A DNA stretch of 64,000 bases from Methylorubrum sp. B1-46. GTDB lineage: Bacteria; Pseudomonadota; Alphaproteobacteria; Rhizobiales; Beijerinckiaceae. Below, one piece after another: positions 11,956 through 27,626 of the stretch. The stretch covers positions 1,389,501-1,453,500 of the forward strand of contig NZ_CP088247.1 in assembly GCF_021117295.1 (NCBI RefSeq). Reading direction: 5' to 3'. Within the stretch, counting starts at the first letter, position 1, and every line of letters starts with the position of its first letter. A program made the translations under genes and the position numbers. The notes under the pieces were generated by a model. The model did not search any database and was not told where the DNA came from. It was given only the letters and a program-made list of their open reading frames with translations.

Positions 11956-12053
11956 GCGGAGGCCGCGATAGCCCCGTCCTGGCTGCACATCCTCGCCGCG
12001 TCATGCCTGCTGCTCGGCGCGGCATGCTCCATCGTTGTCGCCCATGACAATGG

Positions 12054-12185
12054 GCCACAACATGCTGACGTCGTGGCCGCCGCTGCTAGATCCGCTTCCT
12101 CCTACTGAGAAGACCTCTGGGCCGGCACGCTTGAATGTCCGCAAGGGGTCAGGAGTTCGCTCGCCGCATGTTCGGCTGTGCGCCA
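12054..12185 (+). repeat. 132-bp dispersed direct repeat, copy 1
   Basis: This stretch aligns without gaps to 24563-24694, in the same orientation and exactly 12509 bases away. I count 11 mismatches in 132 bases, five of them clustered near 12157-12167. The longest identical run includes TTGAATGTCCGCAAGGGGTC. No transposase or tRNA is attached to it. It could be a non-autonomous repeat scattered through the genome or a remnant of an integration site. Confidence 0.85.
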
Positions 12186-12347
12186 TAAGCGGCCCCCCTA
12201 ACAGAGTCGCTGGAATGGCCGCTTAGCCTTCGAAAACTGCCATTGGCATGGAACAGCAGGTCCCGGCGGCCACAACGTCCCCATGTTGGCGCCCAGGTGG
12301 CCGATGCGCCGCCGGGTTTCGAGGGCGCGGACCGCCGAAGACCGGAA

Positions 12348-12403
12348 TCCTAACGAGACGCTTATGAGATTGGCTCCGCTTCCCGCTCGAACCCTAATGC
12401 GGT
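12348..12403 (+). promoter_or_regulatory. Three-unit phased element, site A
   Basis: Reads TCCTAACGAG, three bases, CTTATGAG, then after a 23-bp spacer CTCGAACCCTAATGCGGT. Units start at positions 1, 12 and 45 of the element, the same as in four other copies in this window. It ends 52 bases before the 78-residue gene at 12456. Unit spacing of one and three helical turns suits an OmpR-family dimer, which would include KdpE. Confidence 0.65.
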
Positions 12404-12455
12404 CGGGGGCAGATATGGAACGCGGTCTCCTGAAGCCCGCGCGAACCCAAGACAC

Positions 12456-12692
12456 ATGATGTCTCCCGCCGTTCAAGTTGCCGCCATCCATGTTCAGGCC
12501 CCCGCCTCGGATGCGGCCCGGTTCATCGTCGGCCAGGACCCGGAAGGCCACTGGGTCGCCATCGAGATCCACGGGCGCGCCGGCGGCCTGTTCCGGAGCT
12601 GCAAGGCCGCGGTCGACTACGCCGAGGACGAGACCGACCACCGGCCCGACGCCGTGCTCCTGTCCGGGGAGCGGATCGAGCTGCGCATTTGA
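12456..12692 (+). CDS. Small conserved-looking hypothetical protein
   Basis: A 78-residue soluble protein that I do not recognise. Its composition is balanced and looks coding: a central ARFIVGQDPEGHWVAIEIHG strand pair, GRAGGLFRSCKAAVDYAEDE, then VLLSGERIELRI. This suggests a small alpha-beta fold without membrane segments or signal peptide. The start is ATG at 12456 (or the adjacent ATG at 12459). Regulatory site A lies just upstream and a small membrane protein gene follows 75 bases downstream, so the two may form one unit. Its placement argues for a role in the putative K+-linked regulon. Confidence 0.6.
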   Translation: MMSPAVQVAAIHVQAPASDAARFIVGQDPEGHWVAIEIHGRAGGLFRSCKAAVDYAEDETDHRPDAVLLSGERIELRI

Positions 12693-12767
12693 ACCCATGG
12701 CCGACGCCCTGGAGCGGTCGGCCCCGGCATCCCAGATCCTTCCCGTCGTCAACCGCAGGAGCTTCCC

Positions 12768-12941
12768 GTGTCCACCCGTTCCGTCCGAGCCCGCCACATC
12801 CGGCACATGGGCTCCGGACGCCGTGGCACCCAGGTCGTCCGTACTTCGGACCTCGTGCTCGCCGTCGCCGGCGTCGCCACGCTCGGCGGCTTCTGCCTCC
12901 TGCTTGCCGCCGACGTCCTGGGGGGTCTCGCGGGCATCTGA
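12768..12941 (+). CDS. Small single-helix membrane protein, SDLVLA type
   Basis: A 57-residue protein starting with GTG at 12768, seven bases after AGGAG. It has a basic N-terminal half (RSVRARHIRHMGSGRRG) and then the shared motif RTSDLVLAVAGVATLGGFC, continuing into LLLAADVLGGLAGI, a single membrane helix. It is clearly related to the 55-residue protein at 10918: both have R-[AT]-S-D-L-V-L-A-V, a cysteine after the helix start, and LAA-x-V plus a glycine-rich end. Function is unknown. It follows the site-A gene on the same strand. Confidence 0.6.
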   Translation: MSTRSVRARHIRHMGSGRRGTQVVRTSDLVLAVAGVATLGGFCLLLAADVLGGLAGI

Positions 12942-12976
12942 CGCCCCTGGCCGGACCGTACCCGATGCCGGGCCGG

Positions 12977-13032
12977 TCCTAACGTGATACTCATACGGCG
13001 GACCCGTTCGCCCTCTCGAACCCTTATGCGGG
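12977..13032 (+). promoter_or_regulatory. Three-unit phased element, site B
   Basis: Reads TCCTAACGTG, three bases, CTCATACG, spacer, CTCTCGAACCCTTATGCGGG. Spacing of the three units equals that of the other four copies. It ends 41 bases before the ATG of the hydratase-family gene at 13074. Confidence 0.62.
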
Positions 13033-13073
13033 AAGGTGCAGGCTCCGGTGACTTAAGCGTCCCGGGGCCTCCC

Positions 13074-13865
13074 ATGCTCGCCTTTCCCTCGCCAGTCCTC
13101 GACATGACCTCCATCGGCGAGCGTCTCGCCCATGCGCGCCTCACGGGCGAACTCACCGATCTGGACCTTGCCGGCCTGGCAGACCTCGACGCGGCGGAGG
13201 ACGTGCGCGACGCGGCCCTGAGAAAGCTTGGCTGGGCGCAGGTCGGCTACGCCCTTGTCGGCACGCATTTGGCGGTCGCACGGACGCTCCGCCTGGACGT
13301 ACCGGTCGTCGCCCCGTTGATGCGCGAGACGGTGCTTGAGAATTCCTCCACCCTACGCCTGCCGCGTGGTGTGCTCGGCGCGGGCGTCAGTCTCTCCTTC
13401 CTGCTCGGTCGCTCGTTCCCGTTCACGGACGAGGAGCCGCTGACCGCCCGCAACGCGTCCCAGGCCTGCCTTGCCTGCCGGATCGACCTGCACGTACTGG
13501 GTCGGCGCACCCTGTCGCCGGCCGTCCTCGACGAACGCTCCGCGACCGCAGATCTCGGGCTCGACGTCGCACACGTGGCCGGCCCGTGGATCGAGGGCTG
13601 GGCAGCGACCGACCTCGCCGCGACCGAGGCCAGCCTCGCCATCGACGGCCACGTGGTCGTACGCGGCCACGGGCGCGACGTCATGGGCGACCCGTTCGCC
13701 GCGGTGGCCTGGTTGGCGCGACGGCTCACCGAACGAGGCTCTGGGCTGAGCGCGGGCGACCTCGTCTCGGTCGGTAGCTGCACCGGCTTGGCGCAGGTGC
13801 TACCGGGCCAGACGCTGTCGGCCCGGTTCGGCCACCTGGGCACCGTTTCGCTCGAACTGCGCTGA
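13074..13865 (+). CDS. 2-keto-4-pentenoate hydratase-like (MhpD/FAH-related) protein
   Basis: A 263-residue protein. The C-terminal third carries the hallmark of the hydratase/decarboxylase branch of the FAH-like fold: MGDPFAAVAWLARRLTERGS, SAGDLVSVGSCTGLAQVLPG and ARFGHLGTVSLEL. The N-terminal helical part (SIGERLAHARLTGELTDL) also fits. Such enzymes use a divalent metal to hydrate 2-hydroxy-dienoates or act on related keto acids. Catalytic glutamates of the family are not all obvious here, so the substrate is open. The start at 13074 was chosen because an upstream in-frame ATG lies inside regulatory site B; an ATG at 13104 is another option. Its link with K+ genes is unusual. Confidence 0.7.
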   Translation: MLAFPSPVLDMTSIGERLAHARLTGELTDLDLAGLADLDAAEDVRDAALRKLGWAQVGYALVGTHLAVARTLRLDVPVVAPLMRETVLENSSTLRLPRGVLGAGVSLSFLLGRSFPFTDEEPLTARNASQACLACRIDLHVLGRRTLSPAVLDERSATADLGLDVAHVAGPWIEGWAATDLAATEASLAIDGHVVVRGHGRDVMGDPFAAVAWLARRLTERGSGLSAGDLVSVGSCTGLAQVLPGQTLSARFGHLGTVSLELR

Positions 13866-13911
13866 ACGCATTGGCTCGTTTCGCTCTCGGCCACCGTCAT
13901 GCGGTAGCGCG

Positions 13912-13930
13912 GGGCGCCCGCAAGGCGCCC
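13912..13930. terminator. GC-rich hairpin between converging genes
   Basis: GGGCGCC, a five-base loop (CGCAA) and GGCGCCC form a perfect 7-bp stem. It sits between the stop of the hydratase-family gene (13865, plus) and the stop of ptsN (13931, minus), where a shared terminator would be expected. There is no T-run on either side, so intrinsic termination would be imperfect. Confidence 0.45.
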
Positions 13931-14410
13931 TCATACGTTGCTGGGTGACCGAGCGCTCACCGACGCGTAGAGGCCCGCAGCGTCCCGCGCACCCCGCAGC
14001 CCGGTGGCGGTCTCCGGGTCCCTGAGCTTGCGCGCCACGCAGGCCAGGGCGTTCAGGTGCCCCCCACCTTCGCCTATGGGCAGCAGCAGTAGAAAGACGA
14101 GATCCACCGGCTGCTCGTCGACCGCATCGAAGTCTAGGGGCTCCCGCAGGCGCGCCAGCAGCCCGAACGGCTTCCTCATCGTCTCCAGCCGCGCGTGCGG
14201 AAGCGCCACACCGTCACCCACCCCGGTAGAGCCGAGCCCCTCCCGGCGGACGAGGGCACCGAGGATCGTGCCGGCATCGAGGTCGAGGGACCGGGCCGCA
14301 CGTTGAGCGAGATCTTCGAGGAGGGCGGTCTTGCCGGAGGCGCGCAGGCCGTGGACCACGTCCGCCGGCGCGAGGATGTCGTCGATGGTCATCGCGTTGG
14401 CCGGCTCCAT
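13931..14410 (-). CDS. ptsN: PTS IIA-like nitrogen-regulatory protein PtsN (EIIA-Ntr)
   Basis: A 159-residue PTS EIIA type-2 domain. The phosphoacceptor histidine is in GDGVALPHARLETMRKPFG, followed by a DAVDEQPVDLVFLLLLP strand and the HLNALACVARKLRDPE helix, all typical of the EIIA-Ntr family. In E. coli, unphosphorylated EIIA-Ntr binds KdpD and stimulates the kinase, so its position 13 bases after kdpE at the end of the kdp run fits a dedicated K+ regulator. The ATG at 14410 was preferred over a longer arginine-rich frame. The genome may hold another ptsN with rpoN. Confidence 0.85.
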   Translation of the reverse strand: MEPANAMTIDDILAPADVVHGLRASGKTALLEDLAQRAARSLDLDAGTILGALVRREGLGSTGVGDGVALPHARLETMRKPFGLLARLREPLDFDAVDEQPVDLVFLLLLPIGEGGGHLNALACVARKLRDPETATGLRGARDAAGLYASVSARSPSNV

Positions 14411-14423
14411 GCGGGGCTGGGTT

Positions 14424-15170
14424 TCAAGTGCTCGTCTCCGTCGTCGCCGGCTTGGTGTCGTTCGCCGCACGCAGCTTGAGGTTCGGTTCGTCGTCGGGGG
14501 CCCGCAGGCGATAGCCGACGCCGGTCTCGGTGAGAAGGATGCGCGGGCGCTCCGGGTCAGCCTCCAGCTTCTGGCGCAATTGGCGCATGTACACGCGCAG
14601 GTATTGCGGCTCCGACGAGACCGAGACCTCGTGCATCAGCTGGGCGTGGGTCAGGACCTTGCCGGCATGCAGCACCAGCACGCGTAGGAAGTCGTACTCC
14701 CTCGGGGTCAGCTTCACATCGGCGTCGTCGACCTTGACTACGCGGCGGACCAGATCGACCGAGAGCCCGTCGACCCGGAAGACCGGGCGCTCGCCGCGGG
14801 CGGCCAACTGGTGGCGCAGGGCCGCGCGCAGGCGGGCCAGGAGCTCTGCCATCCCGAAGGGCTTGGTCACGTAGTCGTCCGCGCCGAGGTCGAGGGCCTC
14901 GACCTTGCCGCCCTCGTCGTCCCGGCTCGACAGGACCACCACCGGAAGACCCGGATGGGTCACCCGGATCGCCCGGAGCAGGTCGTGCCCGCGCATGTCG
15001 GGCAGGCCGAGATCGAGGATGACGAGGTCCGGGCTCTCTTGAGCGAGCACCTCCAGGGCGGTGGCGGCGTTCGGGGCTTCCAGGATGGCATAGCCCTGCG
15101 TGGACAGGCCCATGCGCAGCAATTTGCGGATCGGGGGCTCGTCGTCGATGACGAGGATGGTCGGGCTCAT
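14424..15170 (-). CDS. kdpE: Response regulator KdpE
   Basis: A 248-residue OmpR/PhoB-type regulator. The receiver domain has D9-D10 and the phosphoacceptor at about D53 (VILDLGLPDMRG), with the lysine in YVTKPFGMAELLARL. The winged-helix domain begins near residue 130 and shows LTPREYDFLRVLVLHAGKVL and YLRVYMRQLRQKLEADPERP, then TETGVGYRL. Its ATG overlaps the kdpD stop by four bases (ATGA), so the pair is translationally coupled. KdpE activates kdp transcription when K+ is scarce. It is the best candidate to bind the five phased elements at 12348-24067; a short acidic tail follows the wing. Confidence 0.95.
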   Translation of the reverse strand: MSPTILVIDDEPPIRKLLRMGLSTQGYAILEAPNAATALEVLAQESPDLVILDLGLPDMRGHDLLRAIRVTHPGLPVVVLSSRDDEGGKVEALDLGADDYVTKPFGMAELLARLRAALRHQLAARGERPVFRVDGLSVDLVRRVVKVDDADVKLTPREYDFLRVLVLHAGKVLTHAQLMHEVSVSSEPQYLRVYMRQLRQKLEADPERPRILLTETGVGYRLRAPDDEPNLKLRAANDTKPATTETST

Positions 15171-17887
15171 GCGGCGAGTTCCCTTGGCGTTGTCCGTGCC
15201 GGGACCGGGAGCGTCACGGTGAAGGCGGCACCCAGCCGGTCGCGCCGGTTGCCCGCGGTGACGGTGCCGCCCATCGCCTCGACGAACCCGCGGGAGATGG
15301 CGAGGCCGAGCCCGGTGCCGGCCCGGACGTGGTCGCTCTTCCGGACCCGGTAGAACTTGTCGAACACCCGTTCGACGTCCGCCTCCGGCAGGCCGAAGCC
15401 CTCGTCCAGCACCTCGATCCGGACCGCCTGGCCGTCGTGCCGGGCGCGGACCGTGACGGTGGAGCCTTCGGGCGCGTACTTGGCGGCGTTGTCGAGGAGA
15501 TTGACGAGAACCTGCTCGAACAGGACCGGGTCGAGGCGCAGGGTCGGCAGGTCCGGGTCGATCTCGACCGCAACCACGTGACCCGCCATGACCTTCTGGG
15601 TGCGACGCAGGGCGGTGTCGACGGTCTCGGCCACGTCGTGGGGGGCGAGGTTCGGCGCCACGGCGCCGGCCTCCAGCCGCGTCATGTCGAGCAGGTTCAC
15701 GATGAAGCGGTTCAAACGCTCCGATTCCTCGATGACCGTCGCGAGGAGCTCGCCCTTGGCCTCGGCGGGTAGGGCCGCGTCGAGGTCGCGCAGGGTGGTG
15801 GCGGCGCCGAGCACTGAGGCCAGCGGGGTCCGCAGGTCGTGGCTGATCGAGGTGAGGAGCGCTTGGCGTAGCCGGTCGGTCTCGGCTGCGCGCTCGGCCC
15901 GGTCGAGATCCTCCACGAGGCGCACCCGTTCGATGGCGAGCGCGCCCATGTCGGCGAGCGCGTCGAGGAGGCGCCGGGCCTCGGGCGTCAGGATCGGTCC
16001 GGTGCCGTCCGCGTCGAGGCCGATCACGCCGATGATGCCGCGTCCGGTGCGCATCGGCAGGAACAGGCGCTTGGCTCCTGGCAGGGTGTCGGCGCCGCGC
16101 CCCGCTGGGCGCTCGTTGTCGAAGGCCCATTGCGCTGCGGCGAGATCCGCCTCGTCCAGCATGTCCTCGGGCGGGTAGCCGGCCCGGACGGTCACGGCCT
16201 TGCCGTCCGGCAGCAACAGCACGACGCGCACCTTCAGCATGGCGGCGACCTGGGCGGAGGTCGCCCAGAGCACGTCGTCGAGGGTCCCACAGGCCGCGAG
16301 CTTGCGCGAGAAGCCGAACAGCCGCTCGGTCGCCTTGGCGCGTCCCTGACTGACGACGGCGGTCCGGCGCGCCCGGGCGGCGAGGTTCGAGACCAGCACC
16401 GCCACCACGGTGAAGAGCAGGAAGGCCGCGACGTTGGTCGGGTCCGAGATGGTGAGGGTGTAGACCGGCGGCAGGAAGAAGAAGTTGTAGGAAAGCGATG
16501 ACACGACCACCGCGACGAGGGAAGGGCCGAGCCCCCAGCGCACGGCCACCGCCACGACGGCGGTGAGCAGCATGAGGTCGGCGTTCTCGATGCCCGTGTA
16601 AGGCTCCAACAGCAGGGCGAGCCCGAGCGCCGCGCCGGTGGCGAGCAGCGCGACGATATAGGTCCGGGCATCGAAGGCGGCGGGCGGGGCGACGGTGGCC
16701 ACGGGCCGGCGCGCGCCTGCATCGGCCGTTGGCATGGCCTCGCCGGGGACGACGTGGACGCTGATGTTGCCGCTGCGGCGAACAAGGTCGTGCACCACCG
16801 AGCCGTTGACGAGCTCGAAAGCCCAGGAGCGTGTCGCCTTGCCGACGACGATGTGGTTGACGTTGGCAGACTGCGCGTAGGCCAGGATCTCGTCGGCGAT
16901 GCGCCGCCCGCCCGGCAGGGTGACGGCATCGCCCCCGAGCCGGTCGGCGAGGCGCAGGACCTCGGCGATCCGGTCGCGCTCGGCCTCGGTGAGGGAGGCG
17001 GCCCGCGGCCCTTCGACCACCAGGGCGGTCCAGGGCGCGTGTAGGCGGTCGGCGAGGCGCTTGGCGTAGCGCACCAGGCTGGCGGAGCGCGGGTCCTCGC
17101 TTACGCAGACCAGCACGCGTTCCCCCGCGGCCCAGGGGCCGGGGATCGCGTTCGCCCGCATGTGGCTCAGGAGCTCGTCGTCGACCCGGTCGGCCGTGCG
17201 GCGGAGCGCGAGCTCTCGCAGGGCCGTGAGGTTGCCGCGCGAGAAGTAGTGCTTCAGCGCCCGCTCGGCGTTCGTCGGAACATAGACCTTGCCCGCTTTC
17301 AAGCGCTCGATCAGGTCGTCGGGGTTCAGGTCGACGACCTCGATATCGTCGGCCCGGTCGAGGACACCGTCGGGCACGGTCTCGCGCACCCGGATGCGGG
17401 TGATGGACGCCACCACGTCGTTGAGGCTCTCGACGTGCTGGATGTTGAGGGTGGTCAGGACGTCGATGCCGGCGTCGAGCAACTCCTCGACGTCCTGGTA
17501 GCGCTTGGGGTGGCGAGAGCCGGGCGCGTTGGTGTGCGCAAGCTCGTCCACGAGCGCGATCTGCGGCCGGCGGGCGAGCAAGGCGTCGAGGTCCATCTCC
17601 TCCAGGACCGTGCCGTGGTAGGGCACGGCGCGGCGTGGGACGACCTCGAATCCGTCGAGCAGCGCCTCGGTCTCAGCGCGCCCGTGCGTCTCGACCACGC
17701 CGACGACCACGTCGGCGCCGGCCTTCAGCCGGGCGCGTCCGATGGTGAGCATCTCGTACGTCTTGCCGACGCCGGGCGCGGCGCCGAGGAAGACCTTGAG
17801 CCGACCGCGCGTCCGCTCCTCCCGGCGCGCCGCTTCGAGCAGCGCGTCGGGCGATGGGCGGTTCGGGTCGCGGCCGGTCTCGGGCAT
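15167..17887 (-). CDS. kdpD: Sensor histidine kinase KdpD
   Basis: A 906-residue K+-sensing kinase of full length. Domains in order: N-terminal KdpD domain with Walker A FLGAAPGVGKTYEMLTIGR and the TLNIQHVESLND segment (to about residue 230); a universal-stress-like domain (about 250-380, VLVCVSEDPRSASLVRYAKR); four membrane helices (about 405-500); a GAF-type region; HisKA with LLTSISHDLRTPLASVLG; and an ATPase domain with NLLDNAAKYAPEGS and GTGLGLAISRGF. It autophosphorylates when external K+ is low and phosphorylates KdpE. It starts nine bases after kdpC. Confidence 0.96.
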   Translation of the reverse strand: MPETGRDPNRPSPDALLEAARREERTRGRLKVFLGAAPGVGKTYEMLTIGRARLKAGADVVVGVVETHGRAETEALLDGFEVVPRRAVPYHGTVLEEMDLDALLARRPQIALVDELAHTNAPGSRHPKRYQDVEELLDAGIDVLTTLNIQHVESLNDVVASITRIRVRETVPDGVLDRADDIEVVDLNPDDLIERLKAGKVYVPTNAERALKHYFSRGNLTALRELALRRTADRVDDELLSHMRANAIPGPWAAGERVLVCVSEDPRSASLVRYAKRLADRLHAPWTALVVEGPRAASLTEAERDRIAEVLRLADRLGGDAVTLPGGRRIADEILAYAQSANVNHIVVGKATRSWAFELVNGSVVHDLVRRSGNISVHVVPGEAMPTADAGARRPVATVAPPAAFDARTYIVALLATGAALGLALLLEPYTGIENADLMLLTAVVAVAVRWGLGPSLVAVVVSSLSYNFFFLPPVYTLTISDPTNVAAFLLFTVVAVLVSNLAARARRTAVVSQGRAKATERLFGFSRKLAACGTLDDVLWATSAQVAAMLKVRVVLLLPDGKAVTVRAGYPPEDMLDEADLAAAQWAFDNERPAGRGADTLPGAKRLFLPMRTGRGIIGVIGLDADGTGPILTPEARRLLDALADMGALAIERVRLVEDLDRAERAAETDRLRQALLTSISHDLRTPLASVLGAATTLRDLDAALPAEAKGELLATVIEESERLNRFIVNLLDMTRLEAGAVAPNLAPHDVAETVDTALRRTQKVMAGHVVAVEIDPDLPTLRLDPVLFEQVLVNLLDNAAKYAPEGSTVTVRARHDGQAVRIEVLDEGFGLPEADVERVFDKFYRVRKSDHVRAGTGLGLAISRGFVEAMGGTVTAGNRRDRLGAAFTVTLPVPARTTPRELAA

Positions 17888-17896
17888 GATGGCTCC

Positions 17897-18502
17897 TCAG
17901 CGCTTGGCGAGATCGTCCAGGGCCATGTTGAGCGCCAGGACATTCACGCACGGCTCGCCGAGCAGGCCCAGGGTACGACCCTGGACCTGACCGGCGACGA
18001 GGTCGCGCAGCTTGTCCTCAGGCAGGTTGCGGGCCTTTGCGACCCGCGGCACCTGGAAGAAGGCGGCCTCGGGCGAGACGTCGGGGTCGAGGCCCGAGCC
18101 GCTCGTCGTAACGAGGTCGACCGGCACCGGTTGTCCCGGGTTCTGCCCGCGCAGCGCATCGAGGTCGCCCTTCACACGCTCCGCCAGTGCAGCGCTGGTC
18201 GGCCCGAGGTTCGAGCCCGCGGAGCTGGCGGCGTTGTAAGGCGCCGGCACGGTCTTGCTCGCGTCGGCCGGGTCGGCCGCGGTCGTGGCCGAGGGGCGGC
18301 CATGGAAGTAGCCCTCGCCGGTGAAGCCCTGCCCGATCAGGCTGGAGCCGACGACCTTGCCATCAAGCTCGATCAGGCTGCCGGCGGCCTTGGCGGGGAA
18401 GACCGCGCTGGCGATGCCGGTGACGGCGAGGGGGTAGGCAAGACCGGTGACCGCGGTCAGGGCGACGAGCAGGACGAGGGCGGGGCGAAGCTGGTTCAAC
18501 AT
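17897..18502 (-). CDS. kdpC: K+-transporting ATPase subunit KdpC
   Basis: A 201-residue subunit with one N-terminal membrane helix ([20 protein letters not shown]) and a periplasmic domain. Diagnostic stretches are [60 protein letters not shown] and the C-terminal [19 protein letters not shown]. KdpC stabilises the KdpFABC complex and may raise ATP affinity. It lies 24 bases after kdpB and 9 before kdpD in the kdp operon. Confidence 0.96.
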
Positions 18503-18526
18503 GGCAGGTCTCCTTCGACCTTCGGT

Positions 18527-20617
<2,091 letters not shown>

Positions 20618-20677
20618 GGGTTCGGGTGTCCGGAGAGGGGCGAGGGGACCCGGCGGGCGACGCCGGGCCTTGCCGGT

Positions 20678-20878
20678 TCAGGGGGCGGTCGCGCCGGTGG
20701 CCAGGGTGAAGGCCGCGCCGAGGGCGAGGCCGCCGAGCAGGACGACGCCGAGGAGGGCCAACACGAGATCCGAGGCGCGTACCGGCTTGGCCTCGGAACC
20801 GTGGGGTCGGCGTCGTGACGGCCGGTGCGGCATGAGGTGGTGGCGCGGGATGCGCCGGTTCGGGAGGGTGCGTGGCAT
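20678..20878 (-). CDS. Small single-helix membrane protein inside the kdp operon, SDLVLA type
   Basis: A 66-residue protein whose ATG at 20878 directly follows the kdpA stop (TGA, one base, ATG). A basic first half (MPRTLPNRRIPRHHLMPHRP and onward) precedes RASDLVLALLGVVLLGGLAL and GAAFTLATGATAP, one membrane helix. The RASDLVLA motif is shared with the small proteins at 10918 and 12768. It is not KdpF, which is present upstream of kdpA. Its fixed place between kdpA and kdpB suggests a small accessory or regulator of the Kdp pump; this is inference. Confidence 0.7.
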   Translation of the reverse strand: MPRTLPNRRIPRHHLMPHRPSRRRPHGSEAKPVRASDLVLALLGVVLLGGLALGAAFTLATGATAP

Positions 20879-20879
20879 C

Positions 20880-22595
20880 TCAGCTCCCCGTGCCGAAGGT
20901 CTGGCCGGCCGCGCCGGCGAGGTGCTCGACCACGGGGCCGAGCGCCAGCGACGGGAAGAAGGTCAGCCCGCCGACGATCAGGATGACGCCGACCAGCAGG
21001 CCGACGAACAGGCCGCCATGGGTTGGGAACGTGCCGGCGGAGGCCGGGACCCGCTTCTTGGCGGCGAGCGAGCCCGCGATGGCCAGGGCCGGGATGATCA
21101 CGAAGAACCGTCCGACCAGCATGCCGAGCCCCAGCAAGCTGTTGTAGAACAGCGTGTTGCCGCTGAGCCCGCCGAAGGCCGAGCCGTTGTTGGCCGCCGC
21201 CGAGGTGAAGGCGTAGAGGATCTCCGAGAAGCCGTGCGGCCCGGCGTTGGCAGGGCCGGCGAGGCCGGCGGCCGCCACGGTGGCGACGGCGGTTCCGCCC
21301 AGCATCATCAGCGGCAGGCACAGGATGGCGAGCATGGCCATCTTCACCTCGCGCGCCTCGATCTTCTTGCCCAGGTATTCCGGCGTGCGCCCGACCATCA
21401 GGCCGGCCACGAAGATCGCCACCACGACGAAGACCAGCATGCCGTAGAGGCCCGCCCCGACGCCGCCGACGATGATCTCGCCGAGCTGCATGTTGATGAG
21501 CGGGATCAGGCCGCCGAGCGCCGTGAAGCTGTCATGCATGGCGTTGACCGCGCCGCACGAGGCCGCGGTGGTGACGACGGCGAACAGGGCCGAGGCTACG
21601 ATGCCGAAGCGGACCTCCTTGCCCTCCATGTTGCCGCCCGTCAGCCCGAGCCCGTTCAGCACGGAGCTTCCCGAAGCCTCGCTGCCGTAGGTGACGGCGA
21701 CGCCGGCCAGGAACAGCACGCCCATAGCGGCGAGGATGGCCCAGCCCTGGCGGTCGTCCCCGACCATGCGGCCGAAGACGTTCGTGAGCGCGGCGCCCAG
21801 CGCGAAGATCGAGACGATCTGCACGAAGTTCGACAGGGCGGTGGGGTTCTCGAAGGGGTGCGAGGCGTTGGCGTTGAAGAAGCCGCCGCCGTTGGTGCCG
21901 AGCATCTTGATCGCGACCTGGCTCGCCACGGGGCCGACCGCGATTGTCTGCTTGGCGCCTTCCAGCGTCGTGGCGTCCACGTAGGCGCCGAGCGTCTGCG
22001 GCATGCCCTGCGAGACCAGGAACAGCGCGTAGACGAGGCAGATCGGCAGCAGCACGTAGAGGGTGCAGCGGGTCAGGTCGACCCAGAACGAGCCGACCGT
22101 CCTGGCCGAGGCTCGGGCGAAGCCGCGGATCAGGGCCACGGCGAGCGCGATGCCGGTGGCCGCCGAGAGGAAGTTCTGGTGCGTCAGCCCCAGCATCTGG
22201 CTGAGGTACGAGAGGGTGCTCTCGCCGCCGTAGTTCTGCCAGTTGGTGTTGGTGACGAAGCTCGCCGCGGTGTTGAAGGCGAGGTCGGGCGCCACCGCCG
22301 CCTGGCCCATCGGGTTCAGCGGCAGCACGTCCTGCAGGCGCAGCACCGCGTAGAGCAGCAAGAAGCCGAGCACGTGGAAGGCGAGCATGGCGAGGCCGTA
22401 TCCGAGCCAGGTCTGCTCATGGCGCTCGTCGATGCCGGCGACGCGGTAGAGCCCGCGCTCGACGGGGGCGAGCACGGGCGAGAGAGGGGTTCGCTCCCCG
22501 GTGAAGACGCGTGTCATGTACCAGCCGAGCGGCTTCACGAGCGCGACGATGACCGCGCAGAACAGCGCGATCTGTATCCAGCCGTTAGGGGTCAT
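20880..22595 (-). CDS. kdpA: K+-transporting ATPase pore subunit KdpA
   Basis: A 571-residue K+-channel-like subunit of the superfamily of K+ transporters. Repeated pore regions are visible: [60 protein letters not shown] and [19 protein letters not shown]. The filter residues NxGG and the SAxANxGSAF-like motif are intact. KdpA binds and conducts K+ while KdpB provides ATP hydrolysis. It starts with ATG at 22595, 23 bases after the kdpF stop. Confidence 0.97.
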
Positions 22596-22618
22596 GGGAT
22601 GTGGTCCGGCAAGGCCGC

Positions 22619-22708
22619 TCAGAACCGCTCGGGGCGGATGAGGGCGTAGGTGAGGTAGACGAGGAGGCCGGCGGTCACGAGGGCGCCGAGGGCGAGGTCG
22701 AGGGTCAT
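22619..22708 (-). CDS. kdpF: K+-transporting ATPase small subunit KdpF
   Basis: A 29-residue one-helix peptide: [20 protein letters not shown] followed by YALIRPERF. The Y-L-xx-ALIRPE-x-F ending is the KdpF signature. KdpF is a lipid-like stabiliser of the KdpFABC complex in the inner membrane. It lies directly before kdpA, as in other kdp operons. Confidence 0.93.
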
Positions 22709-22719
22709 GGCGGCGTGCC

Positions 22720-22803
22720 TCAGAGGCGTTCGCAGAGCGTGGCGTAGGCGGCGGCCAGGCCGAAGAAGGCAAGGCCCCCGGCCAGGAAGACGATGTCGAG
22801 CAT
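22720..22803 (-). CDS. 27-residue membrane peptide at the head of the kdp operon
   Basis: Reads [20 protein letters not shown] followed by ATLCERL. It is a single membrane helix with a short cysteine-containing tail (Y-x-x-x-C-E-R-L). Peptides of this form are often seen just upstream of kdpF in alphaproteobacteria and are usually unnamed. It begins with ATG at 22803 and its stop is 11 bases before kdpF, so it is the first gene of the operon, 80 bases after regulatory site C. A second KdpF-like subunit is a possible role. Confidence 0.75.
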
Positions 22804-22882
22804 GGGATGTCCCGTATCCGTTCGGCCCGCTTGTCGCGGTCGTTCCGCGACCGACGGGGGCCGACCCCGAATGTGGACGGGA

Positions 22883-22938
22883 ACCGCATTAGGGTTCGAG
22901 ACGGAAAGGGAGGCGATCCTATAAGGAACTCATTAGGA
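22883..22938 (-). promoter_or_regulatory. Three-unit phased element, site C (kdp operon)
   Basis: On the minus strand it reads TCCTAATGAG, three bases, CTTATAGG, spacer, CTCGAACCCTAATGCGGT. The last 18 bases are identical to those of site A, more than 10 kb away on the other strand. It lies 80 bases before the first gene of the kdp operon, where a KdpE operator would be expected. Confidence 0.72.
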
Positions 22939-23271
22939 TGGGCCCAATTCCGAGGCTCGTCCGGAGCCTTTGGGGCGTGCCTTCGGACGCCAGGCTGCCT
23001 GCAGCTCCTGGCAGGCTCCCGGGGCGTCGACGAGCATGGCTTTCGGGCAGGCGGCGCGCCAGAGCGTGCGGTCCACCTGGATCACGCCGGTGTCCGCCCC
23101 TGCGAAGCCGCTGTACGGCACGCCGCAGGCCGGGCAGCGTCCGACGACGCGGCGGAGATCCGCGGCTCGGGCGTCCGCAGGGACCGGGTCGGGGGAAGCC
23201 CGGCTGGACGGGAAGCGGGGCGTGACGCCGGCAAGGCGAGCCCGCAGGCCGAGTGGGGACCCGGCGCTCAA
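22933..23271 (-). CDS. Hypothetical protein with a CPxCG motif
   Basis: A possible 112-residue protein starting with TTG at 23271 that overlaps the stop of the preceding small membrane protein gene by four bases (TTGA). I do not recognise it. It contains [20 protein letters not shown], then [20 protein letters not shown] and CQELQAA; this arrangement of four cysteines could hold a metal. The end is basic. No ATG or GTG lies near the coupled position, so support rests on overlap, strand and composition. The stop codon lies inside site C of the kdp promoter. Confidence 0.4.
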
Positions 23272-23408
23272 GATGCGGGCAGCAGGTCGAGGGCGTTCAG
23301 GGCGAGCAGCGCGAGGGACAGGGCCGACCAGGAGCCGAGGACCAGGATCATCAGGGCGAAGACGCGGTCGGCCCTGCATTCGGCGGCGATGTGCCGTAGG
23401 ACTATCAT
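23268..23408 (-). CDS. 46-residue single-helix membrane protein
   Basis: Reads MIVLRHIAAECRADRVFALM, then ILVLGSWSALSLALLALNAL and DLLPAS. It has a short charged head with one cysteine and one membrane helix. The R-A-D-R-V-F-A-L region is a weak match to the RASDLVLA motif of the other small proteins. It starts with ATG at 23408, 48 bases after regulatory site D, which is the main support for it being a real gene. Function unknown. Confidence 0.55.
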   Translation of the reverse strand: MIVLRHIAAECRADRVFALMILVLGSWSALSLALLALNALDLLPAS

Positions 23409-23456
23409 CTGCAAACTCCACCCGGGCGACGGCCCGGTGGGCGAGAAGTCCTCGTT

Positions 23457-23512
23457 ACCCCGTTAAGGAACAAGACGGAGACCGGGCCTCCGGCATAGGT
23501 AACTCATAAGGA
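23457..23512 (-). promoter_or_regulatory. Three-unit phased element, site D
   Basis: On the minus strand it reads TCCTTATGAG, three bases, CCTATGCC, spacer, GTCTTGTTCCTTAACGGGGT. Unit positions 1, 12 and 45 match sites A, B and C exactly, though the last unit is more divergent. It is upstream of the 46-residue membrane protein gene. Confidence 0.58.
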
Positions 23513-23586
23513 CCGGTCGACGGGGCTGGCGACACGGGACCGGGGCCGATGCGCATCCGATGCGGGTACGGCTCCATTCGCCGGTC

Positions 23587-23913
23587 CTAGGCGCCACGGG
23601 GTGCGAACAGGATGAGGGCGCTTCCCAGCAGGCACACCACGCCGCCCGCGATGTCCCATCGGTCGGGTCGGTGTCCCTCGAACCCCCAGAGCCAAATGAT
23701 GGCCGCAACGATGTAGATGCCCCCATAGACCGAGTAGGCCCGCCCGGCGGCCTCGCTCTTGGCCAGCGTCAGCAGATCGGCGAACACTGCCAGGGAAAGC
23801 ATGCCGGGCGCCAGCCACCAGGGCGACTTGTCGAGGCGCAGCCAGGCCCAGAATGCGAAGCAGCCGGCGATCTCGGCCAGCGCGGCGGCGGCGAACACGG
23901 GATAGGTCGGCAT
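23587..23913 (-). CDS. ynfA: YnfA/UPF0060 family membrane protein
   Basis: A 108-residue four-helix membrane protein. [40 protein letters not shown] and [20 protein letters not shown] are diagnostic for the YnfA family, a relative of small multidrug-resistance transporters. The natural substrate is not settled. The ATG at 23913 was chosen as it gives the exact family length; the open frame upstream is arginine-rich. Site E and the kup remnant are divergent from it. Confidence 0.9.
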
Positions 23914-24011
23914 GGTCGCGTGTTCGCACGCACGGGCCATGCGGCCAAGCCATGCTTGCACGCTGCGGGGTTCGGCGCCTGTGCCGCGCCGGCCTGGCCG
24001 CCGCTGCGCGA

Positions 24012-24067
24012 TCCTGATGACTTCCTTATACCGCGCGCCCGCCATCCATCTCGTTTCCTTATGCGAG
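24012..24067 (+). promoter_or_regulatory. Three-unit phased element, site E
   Basis: Reads TCCTGATGAC, three bases, CTTATACC, spacer, ATCTCGTTTCCTTATGCGAG. The unit spacing again equals that in sites A-D. It points towards the kup remnant at 24159, which suggests that an intact K+ uptake gene once stood under the same control as kdp. Confidence 0.58.
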
Positions 24068-24158
24068 CCGTTTTAGCGTCGGGACCACGACCGCCCGAAG
24101 ACGCGAGCCCGTCTTCCGCTCACCGACATCCCATCCGTCGGGCCGGTCACTCGAGGGC

Positions 24159-24350
24159 GTGCGGATGTCGCCGTGGGTTCACCGGCCGATCCGCACGCGG
24201 CGGGTCCTGGTGCCCTCGCATGAGACGGGCATGCCGGTCTGGCAGGACCAGCTCTACATCGCCATGGCGCGCGCGGCGACCGATGCGTCACGCTACTTCC
24301 GTATCCCAGTGGACAGGGCCGTCGAGATCGGCGCCCGGATCGACATCTGA
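24159..24350 (+). pseudogene. C-terminal remnant of a Kup-type K+ transporter
   Basis: A 63-codon frame that ends like a low-affinity K+ uptake protein: RRVLVPSHETGMPVWQDQLY, then IAMARAATDASRYFRIPVDR and AVEIGARIDI. In Kup proteins this is the last part of the cytosolic C-terminal domain (M-x-W-Q-D-x-L-F-I-x-x-x-R and YF-x-P-x-x-R-V-V-E-x-G). The twelve-helix membrane part is absent from the upstream sequence, which instead holds the promoter element (site E). I infer a deletion between the promoter and the 3' end. A minor chance remains that it is a stand-alone small protein. Confidence 0.6.
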
Positions 24351-24943
24351 GGACGCGGCGCCCGATCCGGAGCTGCAAAGGGGCCCGCTGCTGCGATGGG
24401 CTATTAGGCCGAGGCCGACGCACGACGGGTTGGTCAGGGTTTGGCGGGTTCGGCTGCCCGCGCAGTGCTCAGGGACGAGCGTACGGGCGCCAGACCCGGT
24501 GTCGCGGCTTGCACATGCCGGAAGGGGACCGAGACCGGCGCGACCTATGCCGGTCATGCTGTGCCACGACATGCTGATGTCGTGGCCGCCGCTGCTAGGT
24601 CCGCTTCCTCCCACTGAGCAGACCTCTGGGCCGACACGCTTGAATGTCCGCAAGGGGTCAGGAGTTCGCATGCCAGTTGTTCGGCTGTGCGCCAGTTCCG
24701 GACCTTTGACGGGAGCAGCCGCAAGGGCCGCTCGCCACCCAACAGCAGCCATTGGTCGAAGAGACCAGGCACCGCAGCCATTCACCCTCACGGTCGGCCT
24801 GCCAAGAGGGCTGAAGGCAAGCCGACCGCTATCGCAGGCCCCGGGAAGGGGCAACCACGCGGCCTCTGACGGGTCACACTCTAGAGCAACAAATAAATGA
24901 AATGAACGAGGATCGGGTGCCTTCGCGGATCATTCTAAATTGA
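24351..24943. other. Intergenic stretch with the second copy of the dispersed repeat
   Basis: No gene is supported. It carries copy 2 of the 132-bp repeat (24563-24694). Downstream of it the GC content falls sharply near 24890, where the regulator genes of the amine island begin; this change marks a probable junction between two DNA segments of different history. Confidence 0.55.
24563..24694 (+). repeat. 132-bp dispersed direct repeat, copy 2
   Basis: Gap-free partner of 12054-12185 (11 mismatches in 132 bases by eye). Flanks differ completely on both sides, so the repeat limits are sharp: GCCAC at the left and GGCTGTGCGCCA at the right. Together the copies bracket all five phased regulatory elements and the kdp system. 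Confidence 0.85.
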
Positions 24944-26011
24944 TCAAGACAGTATTAATTTTTCTGAAAATAATCGATTTTTGTACTTATGAATTAGTGC
25001 CAGTCTAGATTTGACATTTGCTTTTCGGCATATGCGGATAGCGTAGTTTTTGACCGTACCCTTTGACATCGATAGAAGGCGTGAGATGTCAGACGACGAG
25101 CGTCCTCCGACGATCAGATTGAATATGTCGCGCTCACGCCGCGTCAGGCGACGGATCAACTCTGTTCTCTCCCATGTCGAGGCGCGCTCCTGCGGATCGT
25201 CCGGACAGGGTGTCAGCGTAAGCATCCGCCCAGAGGGGGCAAGCGGGAAGTATTTGTCGAAACGCTCGATGTTGACGATGAAATCGTCGAGCATGATTGG
25301 GCCGTTCTGTTCGTTCTGAACGGCAACGGCGAGGAGGGACGGGTCCCTCTCGGCCGCGTCCCGCCAAGATCGTGAGGAGAAGAGTTCGACGCCGCACCGA
25401 TCCTGCACCAAGGTCGGTTGCGGATTAAGCTGCGCGGCCTCCGAGATAAAGCCGCCCTGGCTGGTGGCGTCGAAGATCCGGCCGATATGGGCGCGTTCCA
25501 AGCCGTCGATGATGGGAAACGCTGCCTCGGCCCGCTCGATTTCGATTTTGCGGAAGTCGCCGCGTTCCCTCTCCAGAAAAAGGCCGATCGATGAGTTTCC
25601 GATCGTCGGCAGAAACAAGCCCAGTTCATCGCTTACATTGGCAACCGACTTGAAGACGAAGTTGTAGTTTCCGGCATCGATGGTATCAGCCGTACTCTTG
25701 AATTGCGACAACGCGCGTACACCGACCTCCTGGTACCGTCGCCAATGAGCCGCAAAGGGGTCAACGTCGGAACACAATTTATTGTAATGATCGCGCAGGG
25801 ATTGTGGTACGCCCGACGTATACATGATTTCAGGAGGAGCTGTGTCTGAGAACCGGATGATCCAGCGGGCGCTGTGATGGATCAGGCATCCGAGTAGGTC
25901 GATGAGATTTTCATGGAAATTCATTTCACCGAGCGCGCGGGAGATGTTGCCGACACGCTGAAACCATTCCTGGCTGCCGAAATCCGTGAGCTTGGGACTA
26001 TTTGTTCGCAT
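24944..26011 (-). CDS. LuxR-type HTH regulator, second of an overlapping pair
   Basis: A 355-residue regulator without a receiver domain. The N-terminal 270 residues form a sensor-like region (FHENLIDLLGCL, RWIIRFSDTAPPEI, YNKLCSDVDPFAAHW) and the C-terminal HTH reads LTRRERDIFNLIVGGRSSSD followed by LLSMSKGTVKNYAIRICRK. Its ATG at 26011 overlaps the end of the upstream regulator gene by 14 bases, so they are co-translated. The two proteins share the same plan throughout, which marks an old duplication. Being divergent from the dimethylamine operon, it is a likely regulator of it. Codon usage is more AT-rich than in the ion genes. Confidence 0.82.
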   Translation of the reverse strand: MRTNSPKLTDFGSQEWFQRVGNISRALGEMNFHENLIDLLGCLIHHSARWIIRFSDTAPPEIMYTSGVPQSLRDHYNKLCSDVDPFAAHWRRYQEVGVRALSQFKSTADTIDAGNYNFVFKSVANVSDELGLFLPTIGNSSIGLFLERERGDFRKIEIERAEAAFPIIDGLERAHIGRIFDATSQGGFISEAAQLNPQPTLVQDRCGVELFSSRSWRDAAERDPSLLAVAVQNEQNGPIMLDDFIVNIERFDKYFPLAPSGRMLTLTPCPDDPQERASTWERTELIRRLTRRERDIFNLIVGGRSSSDISRLLSMSKGTVKNYAIRICRKANVKSRLALIHKYKNRLFSEKLILS

Positions 26012-27062
26012 CAGAGTCTTTCGCGAAAGCGATGAATTTCGACACCAGTTCGCCTTCCGATGCGACACCTGATTTCCGATAAAGGCGAAGCTTGATGTTT
26101 CGGATCGAGCCGCCACCTACTCCGAGCGTGCTCGAGATCTCGGGGTTCTTCATTCCCTTCAGCACGAGGCGGAGTACGTCGCGTTCGCGGCGTGTGAAGA
26201 CGGTAAGTGGGTCCGCAACCTCGTTGGACACGTACGAGGTCGGTGCGGCCGTGACTTTCTCGAGCACTAGCATCGCTCCGTTCGGAGCGAGCGGAAAATC
26301 CGAATTGAGGCGCTTGGTCCGCAGGATCCATTCCTCCGAAATTTGTTCGACTCCGCCACTGACGGCGAGTGCTGCGGAAAGTTGCTTCAGCTTCGGAAAG
26401 CGATGCGTCGCTTGGCTCCAATTGCCGTTGGAGTAGACGTGGTGTCCTGCATGATCGAAGAGGGCTCTCGGAGATTGGATTGCAGGTGCGCCGGCCGAGA
26501 AATCCGATTTCCGCGTTTCGTTGAAGAGCAGGCCGAGATGAGATTGGCAGCACCCTTCGATCGCCGGATAGACGGTTTCGAGATTGCGAACCTCGTCTTC
26601 GGTGAAGAAGCCGTGCTTCCTTTCCAGGAAGATCGCGAAGCAGCTATGGGCCGTGATCGGTAGAATGATGCCTAACTCGTCGTCCATCCCGGCCGCCGCC
26701 AAGAATACATCGCTGTATCTCTTGTATGCAGCATCGTTCGATCGCAGCTGATCGAGCGTGAAGATGCCTGACTGCCTTTCGCTTCGCCATCGCGCCGAGA
26801 AAGGGTCGATCGACGCGCAAATCTTGGAATACACGCGTCGCGTCTGTGCTGAGACCCCGCGCGTGAACACAACGTCTGGATTTGTTTCACCGGCATATCG
26901 GATGATCCAGAAAGCATCGCTCGCGACCGTCATGTCGAGAAGGCCGATGAGTTCTTCGTGAAAAAAAGGCGAGCCGATGGATTGAATAACCTTGCCGATA
27001 TGCAGGTTCCACGCGGGCGTTTTGAAGATGCTCGAAGCGTTCGCAGATCGGGACCGTGCCAT
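25998..27062 (-). CDS. LuxR-type HTH regulator, first of an overlapping pair
   Basis: A 354-residue paralogue of the next gene. The sensor-like region carries FFHEELIGLLDM, AFWIIRYAGETNPDVVFTRG and CASIDPFSARW, which match the partner position by position. The HTH reads FTRRERDVLRLVLKGMKNPE, then LGVGGGSIRNIKLRLYRKSG. No phosphoacceptor or autoinducer-binding signature was seen. The ATG at 27062 was preferred over an upstream cysteine-rich extension. The pair could form a heterodimer that senses a methylated amine or a product; this is inferred from position only. Confidence 0.82.
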   Translation of the reverse strand: MARSRSANASSIFKTPAWNLHIGKVIQSIGSPFFHEELIGLLDMTVASDAFWIIRYAGETNPDVVFTRGVSAQTRRVYSKICASIDPFSARWRSERQSGIFTLDQLRSNDAAYKRYSDVFLAAAGMDDELGIILPITAHSCFAIFLERKHGFFTEDEVRNLETVYPAIEGCCQSHLGLLFNETRKSDFSAGAPAIQSPRALFDHAGHHVYSNGNWSQATHRFPKLKQLSAALAVSGGVEQISEEWILRTKRLNSDFPLAPNGAMLVLEKVTAAPTSYVSNEVADPLTVFTRRERDVLRLVLKGMKNPEISSTLGVGGGSIRNIKLRLYRKSGVASEGELVSKFIAFAKDSDANK

Positions 27063-27626
27063 TACTTCCGAGCCATCGATCCTGGGTCCTTTCGGACAAG
27101 TGCAGCCGCTGCGCCGCGACGAATGGCAGGTGCTGAGCAAACCGTTGGTGCCAAATTGCACCATTGCACTCCTGTGCAGCCGCGGCAATTGTGACCCGGA
27201 AGAAAAGTTCTTGATCGCAGGGCGTGCAAAGCTACTGGTGCGTTCTGACAGGAGAGCCTAGGCAAAGGCATGCCGCATGTCGCACTAATACTGATTTTTT
27301 CTCCATGATTTCAGTATTTTATCGAATATCGACAATCTCCTCCAGTGCGCTGAACCCGGTCCAGAATTTGTAGATCGCACGCTCAATCCCGCGCGGCTTC
27401 GTCGCGCGAGGCCGCGCGGGCTCTCCCCCAAGCGCGGCATCGAAAGGCCGGCGACGTCCGCGTTATGAGTCGATCGGGAGCATCGACACAAATATATAGC
27501 TCTCGTGCCGTGAACGAATTCTTGCCATTGAGAGTGTTTGTCGCTGAATTTATTGAGTGCGTCAATATTGCCGAAATATCCATTCCGACGCCGAACAACG
27601 GCGTGCATCGCTTGGGAGGGTAAGTC
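27063..27626. promoter_or_regulatory. Divergent promoter region between luxR pair and dimethylamine operon
   Basis: An AT-rich stretch of 564 bases with no supported gene. It holds an inverted repeat, AATACTGA at 27287-27294 and TCAGTATT at 27311-27318, 16 bases apart. Centre-to-centre spacing of 24 bases and position between divergent units suggest an operator. A GGGAGGG ribosome site at about 27614 precedes the permease start. Confidence 0.5.

Follow-up and report, generated by a model that had tools for sequence, protein, structure and literature searches.

Five phased sites around the kdp locus

The stretch of Methylorubrum sp. B1-46 DNA analyzed here (64,000 nucleotides of contig NZ_CP088247.1; the window) contains a kdp operon for K+ transport and, around it, five copies of a 56-bp element, sites A to E, which we interpret as putative promoters activated by the regulator KdpE. 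The operon lies on the minus strand and opens with a conserved hydrophobic peptide of 27 amino acids (aa) (22720..22803), upstream of kdpF (29 aa; 22619..22708), kdpA (20880..22595), kdpB (18527..20617; as a query, it retained 80 loci at 65-91% identity) and kdpC (17897..18502; PF02669 match). The sensor kinase gene kdpD (15167..17887; PF02702, 330 bits) and kdpE (14424..15170), which was recognized by Pfam and encodes the proposed regulator, are on the same strand. The best solved relative of this KdpE is the Escherichia coli protein (4kny, E 3.6e-56).

Each site precedes a gene start or a gene remnant. Site A (12348..12403, plus strand) lies upstream of a 78-aa small protein (12456..12692, plus strand), the founder of an unnamed family, and site B (12977..13032, plus strand) upstream of an FAA-hydrolase/hydratase-family protein (13074..13865, plus strand; PF01557, 32.9 bits). 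Site C (22883..22938, minus strand), the putative kdp promoter/operator, leads into the operon via the 27-aa peptide, and site D (23457..23512, minus strand) into a hydrophobic peptide of 46 aa (23268..23408, minus strand). Site E (24012..24067, plus strand) is followed by a free-standing C-terminal remnant of Kup (61 aa; 24165..24350, plus strand; PF22776, 37.4 bits). The initial annotation had described these five sites as three units of fixed phasing; coordinates, strands, unit offsets (0, +11, and +44 in all five) and downstream genes are all borne out by the sequence, as are the 18 bases, CTCGAACCCTAATGCGGT, that sites A and C have in common.

The 18-nt pattern of units 1 and 2, with up to three mismatches, matches the window five times, at sites A to E, against an expectation of 0.07 from 100 shuffles, a test that is partly circular because the pattern was derived from the sites themselves. 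A sequence-only model of sites A to E (R1), run on the whole 5.5-Mb genome, returned these sites as the only strong matches (E 5e-14 to 2e-12), all around kdp, with the next best at E 0.077. For a noncircular test, a second model (R2) was trained on 47 sites found upstream of kdp in other members of Methylobacterium, with no contribution from this genome. The 47 were picked among 58 nonredundant kdp-class sites that had all been preselected for standard spacing, which partly explains why they align without gaps over 73 columns. R2 recovered sites C, A, B, and E strongly (E 2.7e-19, 1.9e-12, 7.6e-9, and 2.5e-6, respectively) and site D weakly (0.12). It also found a sixth place, C1:4829487 (E 7.3e-4; 0.495 with R1), which was input to neither model; the gene directly downstream of it encodes a paralogue of the 78-aa protein (50% identity across 54 residues). 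The set of five is real, and at least one further site is predicted. Random matching was seen with neither model, R2 matches being likewise few. BLAST with site C recovered nothing beyond C itself, site A, a portion of B, and a single weak match (E 4.69). An RNA element or riboswitch was also considered and rejected: an Rfam scan of 12000-25000 yielded zero matches, and folding of the alignment gave a weak structure (-2.24 kcal/mol).

Conservation and downstream genes

Conservation upstream of orthologous genes, anticipated in the initial annotation, holds throughout the genus. R1 matches at E<=0.01 occur in 92 of 99 Methylobacterium genomes, and KdpA was found in 94 of the 99. Positions were tabulated for the 150 R1 matches listed, to which weaker ones are additional. 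Among these listed matches, 127 share a contig with kdpA, 125 of them in the kdp neighborhood and 2 elsewhere. The midpoints of 75 fall 246-331 nt before the kdpA match and 13 lie 728-869 nt upstream, in both cases on the same strand; on the opposite strand, 34 lie 8.2-10.9 kb past the kdpA start and 3 upstream. Of the 94 kdpA genomes, 73 show a proximal site (~250-330 nt ahead of kdpA) among the listed matches. Upstream DNA was read in 19 of the other 21 (G006 and G046 were left out) and disclosed a proximal site in 18, 16 of them with R1 (weakest E 0.024) and those of G015 and G083 with R2; none was found in the nineteenth, G059, where the contig edge follows after 388 bases.

A census of the first downstream gene covered 129 sites from 103 sources, part of them accepted at E values up to 0.5, and used eight query peptides. 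The 27-aa kdp peptide came first after 61 sites, the 78-aa small protein after 41, and the 46-aa peptide after 14; the rest preceded an FAA-hydrolase-type gene (5 sites), another short open reading frame (ORF) (2), the kup remnant (1, in the genome under study), or none of these (5). Two genomes have an additional site ahead of another conserved ORF of ~65 aa (L187:2725-2781 and L190:1298-1354), and in G029 a kdp-type site and peptide (L132:6806-6861) stand just before kdpC and kdpD-like ORFs, away from the kdpA of that genome.

The small-protein family accounted for 108 matches in 86 of the 99 genomes, one frameshifted gene of G076 being counted twice. For 49 of these matches, one of the listed R1 sites immediately precedes the gene. 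In the DNA upstream of the remaining 59, R2 detected a site in 45 cases (weakest E 0.0049), invariably on the strand of the gene; therefore, 94 of the 108 are preceded by a site. These sites also occur far from kdp: 20 regions with sites away from kdpA contained 22 sites; a small protein follows 18 of them, a hydrolase and a kdp-type peptide follow one each, and 2 have none of these downstream. The initial annotation expected K+ transport genes and short genes as targets. This is right for kdp and the small protein, but not for K+ transport genes in general; the second conserved target is the small protein. kup in particular was discarded as a regular KdpE target, since neither intact kup gene of the genome (C1:2465392 and C1:1912428) has an R1 or R2 match, and the association is not conserved. 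The kup piece beside site E is a lone C-terminal end, and the E-type sites of G005 and G067 have other sequence downstream (dapA-like, by eye, in G067).

The signal extends beyond the genus. At E<=0.01, R2 matched 46 of 149 genomes of the family, 7 of them Methylobacterium. Among 23 loci retrieved from other genera, kdpA lies no more than 1.5 kb from the site in 17, kdpB in 1, and a small protein in 1. R2 was also run on 53 of 80 named kdp loci (3 from Methylobacterium and 50 from elsewhere; the 27 left out are mostly short or from distant phyla), giving 26 matches at E<=1, 5 in the three Methylobacterium loci and 21 in the others. In 15 of the 50 non-Methylobacterium loci, representing Rhizobium, Mesorhizobium, Bradyrhizobium, Devosia, Novosphingobium, Parvibaculum, and other genera, the match is on the same strand as kdpA and no more than 600 nt upstream; the other 6 matches lie elsewhere. 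Of these 6, one in Bradyrhizobium (L072:4847-4901) is followed by a gene for a distant small-protein relative, and such relatives adjoin kdp in two further Bradyrhizobium loci and one Paenirhodobacter locus. Separately, three Bradyrhizobium loci show a divergent site by kdp ahead of another conserved ORF of ~160-175 aa (L072:7494-7544, L060:3195-3237, and L050:7483-7533, all on the minus strand).

Sinorhizobium fredii CCBAU 45436 offers a comparison with binding data. In its deposited plasmid sequence, kdp is preceded by CCTATAGAAATCCTATT, then by TCTCGAACCTTTATGCGGTTC and CATATT. Read by eye, the half-sites are CCTATA-N5-CCTATT, and the distance from the first of them to CTCGAACC is 36 nt, as in sites A to E. 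KdpE of this strain reportedly binds the kdpFABC promoter in electrophoretic mobility shift assays, and not trkA or kup (PMC9239096). The promoter thus has the layout and spacing described here, and the unbound kup matches our prediction. An ORF resembling the 27-aa peptide can also be read upstream of S. fredii kdpF (L296).

Layout of the element

The spacing of the element is rigid. With distances of 33-43 allowed and a 3-bit charge on any nonstandard value, units 1 and 3 were best fitted at one and the same distance in 127 of the 129 sites; in the remaining 2 the distance is shorter by one base. The interval between units 2 and 3 and the flanks diverge among species while this inner spacing is kept. 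Column conservation resolves into three blocks: the 11-bp tandem repeat TCCTNATGCGATCCTTATAAGA, CTCGAACCCTNAYGCGG, and a downstream hexamer with a conserved A. Units 1 and 2 read CTNATG-N5-CTTATA, or TTTATG-N5-TTTATG in a divergent part of the genus. The conserved A is the second position of a -10-like hexamer, which reads CAGCTT at small-protein-class sites and CACATT at kdp-class ones. Judged from these columns, TCGAAC is probably the -35 element and the hexamer the -10 element, 17 or 18 bp apart, which would place the tandem repeat ~64 bp upstream of the inferred start. The probable -10 hexamers are CAGATA for site A (12410..12415, plus strand; from column conservation in 40 small-protein-class sites), CAGGCT for site B (13039..13044, plus strand), CACATT for site C (22870..22875, minus strand), and GACTTC for site D (23445..23450, minus strand), the weakest among the five; B, C, and D likewise follow column conservation. 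That of site E is putatively TAGCGT (24074..24079, plus strand).

These assignments change how the element is to be read. Its three units and fixed phasing were correctly recognized at the outset, but unit 3 (CCTNAYGCGG) falls between the probable -35 and -10 elements; the whole is consequently better described as a putative operator plus core promoter, site A, for example, comprising the tandem half-sites of units 1 and 2 and the -35/unit 3 part. Since a half-site pattern recurs inside the promoter spacer, unit 3 may be either a third KdpE contact or a part of the core promoter. If it were a mere spacer or core segment for RNA polymerase, the real operator would be confined to units 1 and 2. 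The position of unit 3 between TCGAAC and the conserved hexamer speaks for this, as does the E. coli operator, which consists of two half-sites and not three (PMC3264566). Against it, unit 3 itself follows the half-site pattern (CCTNAYG): an A that hardly ever varies keeps phase with units 1 and 2, the unit comes four 11-bp periods after unit 1, and it looks alike in distant genera. We consider that unit 3 has somewhat less than an even chance of being spacer or core alone.

In the small-protein class, a conserved inverted repeat resembling GCGGTCC...GGATCGCG is found in the stretch that separates the -10 hexamer from the start codon (12404-12455 at site A and equivalents) and perhaps forms a leader hairpin.

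KdpE as the proposed regulator

The initial annotation attributed the sites to an OmpR-type regulator, KdpE by proposal, and the comparison with characterized systems supports this. E. coli KdpE recognizes TTTATA-N5-TTTACA and contacts it through the key residues R193, R200, and T215 (PMC3264566). In the 4kny alignment, with the numbering mapped by eye, all three fall on identical residues of the KdpE encoded in the window. Like the E. coli operator, sites A to E present two direct repeats of ~6 bp at an 11-bp period; the E. coli operator is located upstream of kdpFABC, and so are the kdp-class sites here, across species. Unlike it, they have GC-richer half-sites (CTNATG/CTTATA), carry a third copy at a fixed distance in the core promoter, and precede several genes besides kdp. 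Together with the S. fredii layout and spacing, these features lead us to propose, with a probability of roughly 0.87, that sites A to E are KdpE-activated promoters, each a tandem KdpE operator joined to a core promoter, for induction at low K+. When K+ is scarce, KdpD would phosphorylate KdpE, two subunits of which would bind the tandem half-sites of units 1 and 2, centered ~64 bp upstream of the inferred start, with unit 3 offering what resembles a third half-site on the same helical face. Bound KdpE would bring in sigma-70 RNA polymerase at a weak promoter (-35 TCGAAC, -10 CAGCTT or CACATT) and, in this genome, would switch on together kdp, the 78-aa protein, the FAA-hydrolase-type protein, the 46-aa peptide, and the decayed kup end.

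Several observations weigh against this proposal. Site D reached only E 0.12 genome-wide with R2, and in S. fredii R2 aligned over positions 29-72 only, that is, the downstream part (E 1.3e-7). Neither R1 nor R2 found a site upstream of the second, distant kdpA of G083 (52% identical), an exception to the placement at kdpFABC in the genus. R2 found none at 14 of the 108 small-protein matches either, 12 of which are in genomes with another match. Beyond the genus, 4 of the 23 loci have neither kdp nor a small protein within 1.5 kb, and 35 of the 50 non-Methylobacterium kdp loci lack an R2 match upstream of kdpA, some of their contigs beginning inside the operon. Finally, a moderate site (R1 E 3.1e-5, R2 E 0.0019) persists in G035, a genome with no kdpA and no close KdpE, the best match being 48% over 152 residues. 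No small-protein ORF follows that site, and the one small-protein paralogue elsewhere in the genome is devoid of an R2 site; the G035 site may be a leftover, or else it argues against strict dependence on KdpE. Four further genomes are without kdpA. G016 has no close KdpE and neither site nor small protein, so that the fate of the site upon KdpDE loss can be followed in two genomes only, G016 without it and G035 with a moderate one. In G051 the greater part of kdpE survives, next to the site and the small protein, and the incomplete genomes G073 and G093 have kdpE and the site.

The site of G035 could also mean that a different OmpR/PhoB-type response regulator binds these sequences and happens to control kdp and its neighbors; in line with this, several Desulfovibrio response regulators target kdp (PMC3333781). 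However, the genome has no good matches beyond a handful of sites, which would leave a nonlocal regulator with hardly any further targets. In other genera the layout goes with kdp, G051 preserves most of kdpE together with site and small protein despite lacking kdpA, and this KdpE agrees with the E. coli protein at the DNA-contact residues, all of which makes a different regulator improbable. It is most improbable that the sites are dispersed copies of a mobile repeat, such as a miniature inverted-repeat transposable element, inserted near kdp by chance: sites A and C do share near-identical parts and several copies lie within 12 kb, but the 5.5-Mb genome holds about six good matches rather than scattered copies, across dozens of species the placement is orthologous and the inner spacing rigid, with divergence in the unit 2-3 interval and flanks, and all 45 small-protein sites tested for strand agree with their gene.

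Tandem KdpE sites at kdp are already known, and KdpE has hitherto been regarded mainly as a one-operon switch. In Mycobacterium smegmatis it likewise activates kdpFABC from a conserved upstream site, which differs from ours in its 22-bp sequence, CCGTAAAGAAACCATCAAGGCC, and in its SigF-type promoter (PMC5401905). DVU3334 of Desulfovibrio vulgaris regulates its own kdp operon through a motif kept in orthologues, as here; unlike here, small-protein targets go unmentioned in the available part of that report (PMC3333781). The words motif and regulon are absent from the main text of the S. fredii paper (PMC9239096), as is the phrase "KdpE regulon" from the open-licence PMC literature, where no title or abstract opening among the matches listed describes a KdpE site in Methylobacterium. 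A KdpE regulon with this small-protein family, or the fixed three-unit layout, was not found described in the open-licence literature, which is weak evidence of novelty. What the sites add is a short signal that can be searched for in whole genomes and that flags one and the same second gene genus-wide, and probably in Bradyrhizobium, yielding a short list of candidate K+ starvation genes, a set of small proteins without convincing family match, and, for Alphaproteobacteria, a putative layout of KdpE-responsive promoters open to testing base by base.

The small proteins are about 75-100 aa long, share the motif VGxDxxGxWxAxExxGxxGG(L/I)F, and have a predicted beta-beta-beta-alpha-beta fold; an AlphaFold2 model from eight sequences shows this core with confidence (predicted local distance difference test about 90, predicted template modeling score 0.68). 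The 78-aa member has zero Pfam or NCBIfam matches. Over 37 members, the lowest E values were 0.0025 for Agd3_C, 0.031 for DUF7250, and 0.048 for DUF2188 in Pfam (2 members each) and 0.02 in NCBIfam (1 member). Among solved chains the lowest was 0.092 (YkoF), and Foldseek with the model returned nothing below E 0.4 from the PDB. The small protein is probably produced when K+ runs out, and its putative coregulation with kdp is what suggests a role at low K+. We give about even odds to the broader idea of an old alphaproteobacterial KdpE regulon that reaches beyond K+ uptake, with this presumably cytoplasmic protein as its second core member, coinduced with Kdp and aiding function at low internal K+, e.g., through an effect on the Kdp pump or on some K+-dependent machine.

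Other neighbors of the sites include a gene for an EIIA-Ntr (PtsN)-type protein (13931..14470, minus strand; PF00359, 85.6 bits), which overlaps the end of kdpE; a dedicated protein of the nitrogen-related phosphotransferase system thus seems coupled to kdpDE. The PtsN of S. fredii reportedly acts through KdpD (PMC9239096). A hydrophobic 57-aa ORF with a GTG start and no Pfam family (12768..12941, plus strand) lies between the small-protein gene and site B, and a YnfA/UPF0060 family gene (23587-23913; PF02694, 106 bits) is divergent to site E. Farther downstream, two adjacent minus-strand ORFs (24944-27188) resemble LuxR-type regulators, as judged by eye from their translations.

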